Below are positions 25,711 to 29,510 of a stretch of DNA of 36,676 nucleotides, in pieces. Both the position numbers and the translations under genes were made by a program. This stretch comes from Desulfovibrio piger ATCC 29098. Lineage in GTDB: Bacteria > Desulfobacterota > Desulfovibrionia > Desulfovibrionales > Desulfovibrionaceae. The DNA lies in the NCBI RefSeq assembly GCF_000156375.1, contig NZ_DS996360.1, forward strand, positions 9,973-46,648, in the 5' to 3' direction. Within the stretch, counting starts at the first letter, position 1, and every line of letters begins with the position of its first letter. Below the pieces are notes generated by a model, which saw only the letters and a program-made list of their open reading frames with translations, did not search any database and was not told the DNA's origin.

Positions 25711-27093
25711 TTAGCCCGCCTGCCGCAGCAGGTCGCCCAGGAAGGCATAGGCGAAGGCGAAGTAGATGAACACGCCCACCAGATCCATGATGGAGGTGAT
25801 GAGGGGCGAGGACAGGGTGGCGGGGTCCGTGCCGATGCGCCGGGCCACGAAGGGCAGGAGCACGCCGATGATGCCGCCCAGCACGGTGCAGACCAGCATG
25901 CTCAGGCCCACCACCAGCAGCACGTCCAGATCGATGCCCTTGGAGAACCAGGCGAGCACGGTCTCCATGCCGGCCACCACCAGGCCCAGGGCGGCGGCCA
26001 CGGGCAGCTCGCGCCGGACGACGCGCCAGACGTCCTGCCAGCGCAGGCTCACGTCGCCCAGCGCCATGGCACGGATGACGAGGGTGGCCGACTGGCTGCC
26101 CGCATTGCCGCCCATGTCCACGATGGGCGCGATAAAGGCCGCCAGCACGATGACCTGCGACAGGATCTCTTCCTGCGCGGCCACGAAGGTGCTGGTGACG
26201 ACGCCGAACAGGGTCAGCAGCACCAGCCAGAACACGCGCACGCTGAACATCTTGCGGAAGGGAGATTCGAGGATGTCCAGGTCGGTGCCGTCGGTGGTCA
26301 CCGTGCCGCCAAAGCGGGCCAGCTGGGTGGCGTCTTCCTGCTTTTCGATGTCCATGGCGTCGTCCACGGTGACGATGCCGACCATCTTTTCCCCGCCGTT
26401 GATGACGGGCAGGGCCAGCAGGTCATAGCGGCCGATGAGCTCGGAGGCCTTGCTCCGGGGCCACTGGGCCCGCGCGAACACGGGATCGCGGCGCATGATG
26501 TTCCTGATGGTCAGGGCATCATCGGCCAGCAGCAGCTCGCGCAGGGAAAGGGTGCCGCACAGATGCCCTTCCTTGTCCTGCACATAGATGACGTAGATGG
26601 TCTCCTTGTCGGCGGCGGTGGCCCGCACATGGGCCAGGGCCTGGGCCACGCTCATGTCCGGCAACACGGACACATAGTCCGAGGTGGTCACCGAGCCCAC
26701 GCTGCCCTCGGCATAGGCGGCCAGGCGCAGGATGTCCTCGCGTTCGCCATGGGCCAGAGCGGGCAGCAGGCGCTGGCGGGCGGCCTCGTCCAAGTCGTGG
26801 AACAGGTCCACGCGCTCGTCGGCGGCCATGCCTTCGAACAGGGCCACCACGGTCTCGCGGGGCAGTTCCCGCAACAGGCGGCTCTGGCGCTCTTCAGAAA
26901 AATACACGAATACTTCGGCCAGCGCCTCCGCCTTCAGGCAGGGCAGCAGGCGGGCCACATCACGGCTCTTCAGGGTCTCCAGGGCCTCGGCCATGTCGGA
27001 GGGGTGGACGCTCCCCACCAGTTCGGCAAAGGCGGTGGTATCGTGACGGGCGGACAGGTCGCGCACGGTGCGCAGCAGGTTTTCACGGATCAT
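25711..27093 (-). CDS. mgtE: Magnesium transporter MgtE
   Basis: A 460-residue Mg2+ channel/transporter. Order: N-terminal superhelical domain (about 1-125, with HPSDMAEALETL and FEGMAADERVDLFHDL), two CBS domains (about 130-255, TSDYVSVLPDMSVAQAL and YDLLALPVINGGEKMVGIVTVDDAMDI), the plug helix, then five membrane helices with the family motifs PIVDMGGNAGSQSATLVIRA and VGLSMLVCTVLGGIIGVLLPF; the pore Asp near DLVGVFIYF is also kept. In characterised MgtE the cytoplasmic domains close the pore when Mg2+ is plentiful. AAAGGAG stands eight bases before the ATG. No M-box riboswitch is recognisable upstream; instead there are four short ORFs. Confidence 0.95.
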   Translation of the reverse strand: MIRENLLRTVRDLSARHDTTAFAELVGSVHPSDMAEALETLKSRDVARLLPCLKAEALAEVFVYFSEERQSRLLRELPRETVVALFEGMAADERVDLFHDLDEAARQRLLPALAHGEREDILRLAAYAEGSVGSVTTSDYVSVLPDMSVAQALAHVRATAADKETIYVIYVQDKEGHLCGTLSLRELLLADDALTIRNIMRRDPVFARAQWPRSKASELIGRYDLLALPVINGGEKMVGIVTVDDAMDIEKQEDATQLARFGGTVTTDGTDLDILESPFRKMFSVRVFWLVLLTLFGVVTSTFVAAQEEILSQVIVLAAFIAPIVDMGGNAGSQSATLVIRAMALGDVSLRWQDVWRVVRRELPVAAALGLVVAGMETVLAWFSKGIDLDVLLVVGLSMLVCTVLGGIIGVLLPFVARRIGTDPATLSSPLITSIMDLVGVFIYFAFAYAFLGDLLRQAG

Positions 27094-27113
27094 TGGTCGT
27101 TCTCCTTTTTTCT

Positions 27114-27311
27114 TCAGCGTGCGGGATGGGGACGGCGGATGGCAGGCAGTCGGCGCTGCCCGAAGGCCGTCCGCGATCCGGGGTCATGCGGCCGGGCACG
27201 GAAGAGGAGAAAACCGTTATGCGTCCGGGGGACGGGATGGATCGGGCGCAGGTCATGGACGTTGACGCCAGAGGCGACCCGGCGGGCCATCCGTGTTTTT
27301 TTGAGGATCAT
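27114..27311 (-). CDS. Small ORF D upstream of mgtE (65 residues)
   Basis: ATG at 27311 with GGGGAGG five bases upstream. The peptide starts MILKKTRMARRVASG and is Arg/Pro/His-rich with no recognisable domain. It overlaps the end of small ORF C in another frame and ends 20 bases before the mgtE start, so translation could affect mgtE. Composition is like a random GC-rich frame; only the ribosome binding site and position speak for it. Confidence 0.35.
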   Translation of the reverse strand: MILKKTRMARRVASGVNVHDLRPIHPVPRTHNGFLLFRARPHDPGSRTAFGQRRLPAIRRPHPAR

Positions 27312-27405
27312 GACAGACCTCCCCAAGGTTGGGATGCTGGGGGCAGGCGCGTGCGAAGGCAGGCGCGGCCACGGACGACGGGAGGGGGGCAGGGTGACTG
27401 TCCAT
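27253..27405 (-). CDS. Small ORF C upstream of mgtE (50 residues, MgtL-like start)
   Basis: ATG at 27405 with AAAGGAG eight bases upstream. It begins MDSHPAPLPSS; the E. coli Mg2+-sensing leader peptide MgtL begins MEPDPTPLP. Both have an acidic residue at position 2 and Pro at 5, 7 and 9. In MgtL such acidic/Pro-rich starts destabilise ribosomes at low Mg2+ and so switch on mgtA. Similarity over nine residues is short; homology is not claimed, convergence is possible. Confidence 0.4.
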   Translation of the reverse strand: MDSHPAPLPSSVAAPAFARACPQHPNLGEVCHDPQKNTDGPPGRLWRQRP

Positions 27406-27638
27406 ACGTCGGCTCCTTTGGTTAGGGGTGTTCTCGATACAGGCCTTCCTGACGGGCGTCACGGCAGGCGCACGGCATGACGGCAGGCCTGACGCGCCGG
27501 TACGGGACGCGCGCGGTCACATGCCGCAAGGGTGTTCCATGCGGGCCAGACGGCGCCGAAGGCAATGGCGGATGATGACGGAAGACCATCCCGCAGGGCG
27601 GGGCCCGGCAGGGGACGGCAAAGGGAGGTGATGGCCTG

Positions 27639-27791
27639 TCAGCAGACAGCGCGCATCACGGACGTCCGGCCCATGACGGGGATGGACGAGCGGGAAGGAT
27701 GCAGGACATGACGGCGCGCCCGGAAGATGATCCGGTCACGGACGGGGCCGTGCTGGGGGACAGACGGCAGGAAGATGAAGGTATGGGACAT
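27639..27791 (-). CDS. Small ORF B upstream of mgtE (50 residues)
   Basis: ATG at 27791 with GAGGAGG four bases upstream, the strongest ribosome binding site of the group. It begins MSHTFIFLPSVPQHGPVRD and is rich in Arg, Ser and Val. No domain recognised. Confidence 0.35.
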   Translation of the reverse strand: MSHTFIFLPSVPQHGPVRDRIIFRARRHVLHPSRSSIPVMGRTSVMRAVC

Positions 27792-27847
27792 GAGACCTCC
27801 TCGCAGGGCTGGCACTGCCTGCGGGAAGATGGACGCAAGGCAGGCGA

Positions 27848-27904
27848 TCAGCGTGACGGGACAGATACCTGGATACTGGGAGGGATGGGACTGTCGGATG
27901 ACAT
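27848..27904 (-). CDS. Small ORF A upstream of mgtE (18 residues)
   Basis: ATG at 27904 with AAGGAG five bases upstream; the peptide is MSSDSPIPPSIQVSVPSR, with an Asp and three Pro within the first ten residues. A 7-bp hairpin GGCCGTC/GACGGCC (27925-27943) stands just upstream. Confidence 0.3.
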   Translation of the reverse strand: MSSDSPIPPSIQVSVPSR

Positions 27905-27924
27905 GGGAACTCCTTGCGTGACAT

Positions 27925-27943: not shown

Positions 27944-28154
27944 TGTTTCCTATGACACAGATAGGAATAGAAGTCCAGCAAAAAAGCCAGGATAGCGAAG
28001 ACGTCACAGAAATGTCGTAAAGGAGCAGGGCGGACAGGGGACTGCCACGGTATGCGATGCCCTCCGGCCGGAAAGCCGGGCCTGCGGTATCTGCCCGGAC
28101 AGGAAGAGGCCTGTTTTCCGGGCAGGCATCCTGCAGGAGCGGCAGGCGGCAGCC
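27944..28154 (-). other. Gene-free stretch between the acetyltransferase gene and the mgtE leader
   Basis: About 210 bases. It includes a two-part hairpin TGCCCGG/CCGGGCA with inner ACAGG/CCTGT (28092-28124) just after the acetyltransferase stop, without T-run, and a more AT-rich part (27950-28025) that may contain the promoter for the mgtE leader; no clear -35/-10 pair was found. Confidence 0.35.
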
Positions 28155-29210: not shown

Positions 29211-29261
29211 AGGCAAAGCGTGCTGGGGAAGGAGGGGGAGAGGGAAAGCCCTCTCCCCGGA

Positions 29262-29426
29262 GCGACCGGATGGCAGCCCGCAGGGCTGTGCCCGTTGCGA
29301 CACAGGAAGCTACGGGCATCGACAGCAGAGATGCGACCGGATGGCAGCCCGTAGGGCTGTGCCCGTTGCGACGCAGGAAGCTACGGGCATCGACAGCAGA
29401 GATGCGACCGGATGGCGGCCCGCAGG
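29262..29426 (-). repeat. Tandem structured 71-bp repeats downstream of speB
   Basis: Two complete, nearly identical units (29262-29332 and 29333-29403) and the first 23 bases of a third (29404-29426). Each has a CAGCCC/GGGCTG stem and a TGCCCGT/ACGGGCA stem separated by 16 bases. They match the unit at 3857-3928 after mutY. The units abut without spacers and are in the same orientation, so this is not a CRISPR array. They lie between the speB stop and its terminator. Confidence 0.75.
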
Positions 29427-29510
29427 CGCGTTGTGGACATCGCCGGGATCAGCCGTACCGTTGGCTGTCAGGGGTGCGGGGACCCTTCCCCCAAAAGGGA
29501 TTCCCGGCCG

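Follow-up and report, generated by a model that had tools for sequence, protein, structure and literature searches.

What the long leader of a magnesium transporter gene might do is the question raised by the window, a stretch of 36,676 nt from Desulfovibrio piger ATCC 29098 (contig NZ_DS996360.1, positions 9,973 to 46,648). On its minus strand lies mgtE (25711..27093), encoding a 460-aa Mg2+ transporter with the MgtE_N, CBS and MgtE domains of Pfam and a TIGR00400 score of 338.8 bits (cutoff 232.75). Between the mgtE start (27093) and the end of an acetyltransferase-like ORF (28155) there is a leader of 1061 nt on the same strand. An initial annotation had singled out four ATGs in it (27904, 27791, 27405 and 27311, minus strand), each behind a strong Shine-Dalgarno (SD) sequence and opening frames of 18, 50, 50 and 65 codons, and had suggested leader-peptide control of mgtE, one of the four ORFs starting like the Mg2+ sensor peptide MgtL.

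The leader and its four start sites

The four sites are as described. Their SDs match over 6–7 nt at spacings of 3–7 nt, and a rule asking for a match of at least 6 nt, a spacing of 3–9 nt and then an ATG passes exactly these four starts in the 1061 nt; we refer to them as uORF1 to uORF4. Dinucleotide shuffles of the leader (n = 2000) held on average 0.051 such sites and at most 2, so that four were reached in 0 of 2000, and among 136 equally long, half-overlapping stretches taken from both strands of the whole window, only two had 3 or 4 sites, both of them overlapping the leader. The annotated absence of an M-box was confirmed, in that no Rfam family, the M-box included, matched the leader region at threshold; a relaxed scan gave two sub-threshold matches to animal miRNAs on the other strand. 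The leader is C-rich (C/G ratio 1.51, against 1.06 for mgtE and 1.04 for the acetyltransferase ORF), which would suit Rho, as Rho sites are C-rich. Just upstream of uORF1 is a candidate sigma70-like promoter (27949..27977, minus strand), with TGGACT at 27977-27972, a gap of 17 nt and CATAGG at 27954-27949. In 19 of 20 loci, all but L049, the 85 nt ahead of uORF1 contain a pair of this kind (T[TG]GACN, 17 nt, hexamer), whose downstream hexamer reads CATAGG in 10 loci and CTANNN in 6. Direct repeats resembling TCCGGTCGCATCTCTGCTGTCGATGCCCGTAGCTTCCTG were seen by eye at 29250-29440, upstream of the acetyltransferase ORF.

Of 288 Desulfovibrionaceae genomes, 22 encode an MgtE of the window type (E <= 1e-140). 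Another collection yielded seven contigs with such a protein, six of which proved by their coordinates to be contigs of the same 22 genomes, the seventh coming from Silanimonas. The leader comparison covered 21 of the 22 loci, one genome per species; G202 was left out, its upstream DNA being split. In that genome a uORF1-uORF2 element and mgtE are about 8 kb apart, with an ORF in between that looks by eye like an integrase (L101, G202:C57:24500-36800). Across these loci the starts, the SDs and the N-terminal Asp or Glu recur in about 20 genomes, and the conservation that had been named as a check on the annotation was thus found.

The first of the four, uORF1 (27848..27904, minus strand), has 18 aa reading MSSDSPIPPSIQVSVPSR. 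It could be looked for in 20 loci, the contig of L047 ending too early, and is present in all 20, in 19 by the SD rule and in L052, where the SD is weak, by sequence. Its start fits M[SP]S[DE]S in 17 of the 20; residue 4 is acidic in every one, and residue 5 is an AGT-coded Ser in 19 (AAT in G210). We regard it as the first candidate sensor of CorL type and as a better conserved one than uORF3; neither this difference nor the promoter had been noted in the initial annotation. The second candidate sensor, uORF3 (27253..27405, minus strand; 50 aa), begins MDSHPAPLP as quoted there. It was found in 20 of 21 loci; its second residue is acidic in 19 of them, L049 having His, and 16 show the strict form M[DE][SN][HP]. 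In its place G008 has MPAHPDPVP. A Pro-Pro-Gly near its end (27277..27285, minus strand) is a possible stall site. Of 13 Desulfovibrio-type loci, 12 have this PPG 1–7 codons ahead of the stop, and its codons vary synonymously; the thirteenth uORF3, in G091, is frameshifted and has no PPG there. In the Mailhella-like g44 loci just one of seven uORF3 sequences has a PPG, away from its stop.

For uORF2 (27639..27791, minus strand; 50 aa), a candidate relay ORF over C-rich RNA, start and SD were found in 19 of 20 loci (GTG in L046; none seen in G008), with poor conservation of the peptide. The SD and ATG of uORF4 (27114..27311, minus strand; 65 aa), a candidate relay ORF covering an anti-SD discussed below, are present in 12 of 14 Desulfovibrio-type loci (not in L049 or G008) and in none of the seven g44 loci, where uORF3 runs into the mgtE start with an overlap of 11 nt in six and 62 nt in one. 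Some genomes keep parts of the leader without an intact transporter gene: G090 retains uORF1 and uORF2 and has no mgtE of window type, and in G094 (L166) and G091 (L038) mgtE is interrupted.

The expectation of dN/dS below 1 was borne out only weakly. Pooled pN/pS came to 0.58, 0.66, 0.66 and 0.72 for uORF1 to uORF4, compared with 0.09–0.39 in mgtE pairs; for uORF4, two of the closest pairs exceeded 1, at 1.27 and 4.04. Given this spread between single pairs and the lack of a neutral control, pN/pS alone proves little; purifying selection on the whole peptides looks weak, and so does the constraint beyond the N-terminus. What stands out in the peptides are the acidic N-termini and the PPG near the uORF3 stop. 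The four ORFs do not look equal: uORF1 and uORF3 look like sensors, and uORF2 and uORF4 like relays.

Possible alternative pairings and the mgtE start

Four segments of the minus strand, from the SD of uORF1 to that of uORF2, offer a choice of partners. Segment 1, CACGCAAGGAG (27910..27920), contains the uORF1 SD; segment 2, CCTGCCTTGCGTC (27832..27844), directly follows the uORF1 stop and may pair with segment 1 or 3; segment 3, CTTCCCGCAGGCAG (27815..27828), which includes CTTCCCGCAGG, may pair with segment 2 or 4; and segment 4, CCTGCGAGGAGG (27796..27807), contains the uORF2 SD. The 19 loci were reduced to 13 representatives, and an alignment-free swap test compared the pairing of each one's own segments with that of segments exchanged among the 13. 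The position of segment 1 was set by counting from the ATG; for segments 2–4 the reference points were the stop codon of uORF1 and a core resembling CGCAGG, and the variants of this core in L049, G068 and G208 were chosen with pairing in view. Own pairing was reached in 232 of 50000 permutations for 1:2 (P 0.005), 145 of 50000 for 2:3 (P 0.003) and 39 of 50000 for 3:4 (P 0.0008), values to be read as exploratory because the tests were designed once the pairings had been seen. The control pairings 1:3, 1:4 and 2:4 gave 11969, 14559 and 7938 of 20000, that is, no covariation by this test. Without G068, the most divergent locus, the counts for 1:2, 2:3 and 3:4 were 401, 300 and 379 of 50000, and with earlier segment borders 2:3 and 3:4 gave 169 and 15 of 20000. 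By eye, the 3:4 stem is kept by double changes in L049 (CGCAAG/CTTGCG) and G068 (CGCGGG/CCCGCG); the 1:2 pairing is missing in L052.

Alignment-based analysis gave a different picture. MAFFT followed by RNAalifold returned no structure and no pairs for the leader, and when the 3:4 helix was counted on the MAFFT alignment, 78.9% of its cells were paired with 0 double-change pairs. The covariation score of the helix on that alignment was reached by 31 of 500 shuffles and other measures by at least 69. We judge this to reflect mis-register caused by indels, which is why the alignment-free tests were used, and it can also be weighed as a negative result. On the swap tests, 1:2 with 3:4, in which both SDs would be hidden, and 2:3, in which both would be free, look like alternative states.

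A further pairing concerns the mgtE start itself. Inside uORF4 lies an anti-SD stretch, TTTTCTCCTCTTCC (27200..27213, minus strand), which covaries with the SD region of mgtE, AGAAAAAAGGAGAAC (27099..27113, minus strand). Placed at one aligned site in 13 loci, it is the best partner of its own SD in 12, the best partner in G095 being elsewhere. When eight representatives were swapped, 15 of 40320 permutations reached the cis pairing, a proportion somewhat flattered by the picking of these stretches as best SD partners. When the upstream sequence was shuffled by mononucleotides, 6 of the 13 loci had a best duplex that stood out clearly (at most 2 of 200); the window itself gave 15 of 200. The g44 loci have no counterpart at this position. 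A comparable proposal, that the uORF4 SD is sequestered by the body of uORF3, was unsupported (1339 of 5040 permutations) and was dropped.

Related leaders before other transporters

A covariance model of the uORF1-to-uORF2 region matched 48 of the 288 family genomes at E <= 0.01, the lower half of them weakly. The matches comprise the known leaders, G022 (where the contig ends), G090, G218 and G202, and, weakly, leaders of mgtA (G061, G062 and G064); those in G106, G117, G265, G212 and G271 and a second one in G066 seemed on inspection to be chance. A pattern for an SD followed by MSSDS, AAGGA-N4-9-ATGTCNTCNGACAGT, gave 0 matches in the control and was found in 14 of the 288 genomes of the family. 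Ten of its places lie in mgtE-type leaders (eight before mgtE, and G022 and G090) and four before mgtA, with none elsewhere.

The Desulfovibrio mgtA product is a P-type Mg2+ ATPase (TIGR01524, 1157.6 bits), encoded in 15 of 79 genomes of the genus at 16 loci, 15 of which were inspected (G011 has no upstream DNA). A short acidic or acid/Pro uORF with an SD of at least 4 nt precedes the gene in 13 of the 15, although the ORFs were chosen by eye and other short ORFs are present too. Five begin MSSDS (for example MSSDSCHSSPSEPDSLRR), three MEPDS (G029, G064 and G072) and five MDHPPS; the two loci without one are G026, where none passed the rule, and G069, at a contig edge. Five of the mgtA loci (L124-L128, in G088, G017, G070, G067 and G021) have in addition a hydrophobic ORF of 47–55 aa, MKFSLFLC or similar at its start, upstream of the leader uORF, reminiscent of MgtS-like small membrane proteins. 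A mutual exclusion of mgtA (15 of 79) and window-type mgtE (11 of 79) was considered and set aside; the two do not overlap, but only about 2 genomes with both would be expected by chance.

Similar starts, with the residues DSHS, occur outside the family. Silanimonas lenta has a GTG-start uORF, MGQDSSDSCSPAA, and a second one beginning MDPDPGRLRLH ahead of a 241-aa ORF and mgtE; window-type MgtE is found in 3 of 247 genomes of the Silanimonas family. In the two further genomes, mgtE and a 222-aa ORF before it are preceded by TTG-start ORFs reading MDSHSRSRCCS and MDSHSRSCAY. Of 398 Pseudomonadota genomes, 12 matched the 14-mer TGGACAGTCAYAGT, and the control gave 18 matches; since there is no raw enrichment, only the context of the matches is informative, and it was inspected for the 12. 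Five of the 12 are leaders of 11–13 aa before corA, three of these genes scoring 349–372 bits in a TIGR00383 scan and two matching corA by search. Two more precede CorA-like genes that are truncated at the end of the locus and score below the NCBIfam cutoff and in one case below that of Pfam. One each precedes a gene of the Nramp family and a TerC/CBS gene (L140 and L141) and a DUF445 gene, and the remaining two are not leaders. In the family of G911, CorA is encoded in 121 of 121 genomes, and at its 30 closest corA loci a TTG-start LDSHSRY leader of 10–14 aa was present in 30 of 30. Ahead of the DUF445 gene (L134, G928:C67:87606-87972), TGGACAGTCATAGT occurs five times in about 370 nt. An ORF of 222–225 aa, alike by eye and in L143 without a Pfam or NCBIfam match, stands between the DSHS leader and mgtE (L131, L132) or a CorA-like gene (L143); the transporter may have been exchanged behind one cassette in these three loci.

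These leaders point to CorL as the closest known peptide (MD[ST][HP]SRY) rather than MgtL, and the proposed likeness to MgtL was upheld only as to a role in the control of Mg2+ transport, which is backed by the occurrence of the same uORF before mgtA and of DSHS before corA. In E. coli K-12 the ORF ysgD upstream of corA reads LDTPSRYWLTILSSRINS, with the N-terminus LDTPSRYW (MDTPSRYW as translated); by its place and UUG start we take it for corL. An MD[ST][HP]S start upstream of an Mg2+ transporter is resembled by MDSHP in window uORF3 (M[DE][SN][HP] in 16 of 20), by the offset MSSDS of uORF1 and by LDTPS of E. coli corL; start codon, position and MD-x-x-SRY suggest a probable kinship of the DSHS leaders with CorL. 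Translation of corL is reported to be inverse to corA expression, the control being dependent on Mg2+, on two structures and on Rho (PMC11552253). The CorL leader, known before corA in E. coli and Salmonella, resembles that of the window in its MD[ST][HP]S-like start, the acidic residue 2, the AGT Ser, a uORF SD held in a stem and alternative structures before an Mg2+ transporter; in the window, mutually exclusive structures, one of which would hide a uORF SD, are predicted from the swap test. The window differs in its ATG starts, strong SDs, two candidate sensors in series, relay ORFs and anti-SD, and its gene is mgtE, so that the leader is not corL, though it may work alike.

Other known leaders share less. 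MgtL, reported to drop ribosomes at EPDP under low Mg2+ (PMC11282234), is likewise a short uORF before an Mg2+ transporter gene (mgtA) with acidic residues at its extreme N-terminus, and the three MEPDS starts of Desulfovibrio mgtA leaders resemble it. However, the mgtE uORFs lack EPDP, which is at the N-terminus of no window uORF; window uORF3 has PAPLP with one Asp, and MgtL has more acidic residues than the DSHS motif, which has one. MgtQ of Salmonella mgtB is described with Asp2/Glu5 and a 1:2+3:4 versus 2:3 logic that frees an SD (PMC8092293); the window shows the same anatomy in its predicted pairings, with a short acidic uORF and the downstream SD in segment 4. MgtQ, in contrast, controls mgtB directly within an operon and has segment 1 inside its ORF, whereas in the window segment 1 corresponds to the SD of the uORF itself and segment 4 to that of another uORF. 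The mgtCBR operon for Mg2+ transport also has two leader ORFs in series, mgtM and mgtP, which are reported to answer different signals in Salmonella, ATP and proline (PMC3641672); the sensor ORFs of the window share one kind of motif. The mgtE motif SRC-65-1, a riboswitch candidate described from one genus only, Thioalkalivibrio (PMC11109978), is also a structured element at an mgtE start and was set apart by its description only.

A candidate mechanism and its alternatives

Leader-ORF control of mgtE is strongly supported by these comparisons of sequence. The leader is best read as a real and conserved tandem CorL-type attenuator, and we put at roughly 0.7 the probability that it acts in cis and responds to Mg2+ in the manner of the CorL, MgtL and MgtQ leaders, with two sensor-plus-relay units in series. 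Ribosomes that finish uORF1, with its conserved acidic N-terminal motif, would allow 1:2 and 3:4 to pair, hiding the SDs of uORF1 and uORF2; untranslated uORF2 would leave C-rich RNA open to Rho, and transcription would end before mgtE. At low Mg2+, ribosomes on uORF1 would drop off or stall early, 2:3 would form, and translation of uORF2 would shield the RNA. The test would be repeated by uORF3, with its similar motif and terminal PPG, which would feed uORF4, and ribosomes on uORF4 would disrupt the helix of anti-SD and SD that covers the start of mgtE. We infer Mg2+ as the signal, as well as translation, ribosome destabilisation, Rho and the uORF3-to-uORF4 step; the same applies to which step senses Mg2+, if any does.

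The most probable alternative keeps the leader-ORF switch and changes its signal, to charged tRNA-Ser at AGU, to EF-P or proline at PPG, or to the general state of the ribosome. Seven long ORFs in the window contain 139 Ser codons, none of them AGT, yet AGT is near-invariant in the uORF1 motif, which points to a constraint on codon or RNA that a pure peptide model leaves unexplained; the PPG of 12 of 13 uORF3 sequences and the proline and ATP responses of mgtP and mgtM are further points for it. On the other hand, the motif stands before three unrelated families of Mg2+ transport proteins, MgtE, MgtA and CorA, and in E. coli the uORF-bearing leader of corA is reported to respond to Mg2+ (PMC11552253). 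We consider another signal unlikely. Less probable still is a purely translational relay, in which the uORFs hand ribosomes down to mgtE by coupling and sense nothing: the overlap of uORF3 with mgtE in the g44 loci and the covariation of the anti-SD with the mgtE SD would fit it, but it accounts neither for the conserved N-termini nor for the 1:2/2:3/3:4 switch. That the uORFs encode small functional proteins, as pooled pN/pS below 1 might suggest, seems very improbable, with uORF2 and uORF4 peptides that diverge freely, lengths that vary and a set that is fixed before mgtE. Chance SD-ATG sites in C-rich spacer DNA, a reading for which nothing spoke, are contradicted by both the shuffles and the conservation across loci, and can be practically dismissed.

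The tandem attenuator remains our preferred reading. Nothing like it was found in print for mgtE or Desulfovibrio among the open-licence literature searched, and as far as those searches reach, three things appear to be new: a switch of CorL type before an mgtE gene, the serial arrangement of two sensors with their relay ORFs, and the spread of the motif over unrelated Mg2+ transporters. More tentatively, and at somewhat less than even odds, one old Mg2+-sensing D-S-H-S motif with a favoured AGU Ser may be shared by leader ORFs throughout Pseudomonadota and Desulfovibrionaceae, those of corA, mgtA and mgtE and possibly those of Nramp and TerC/CBS genes, with CorL as one member; in Desulfovibrionaceae, two copies placed one after the other and joined to relay ORFs would make up a gate with two checkpoints. 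If this is true, the many natural variants of one short motif would offer a means of probing, residue by residue and codon by codon, how Mg2+ governs ribosome destabilisation, and peptide-based Mg2+ control would be a portable module on unrelated transporter families rather than an enterobacterial speciality.
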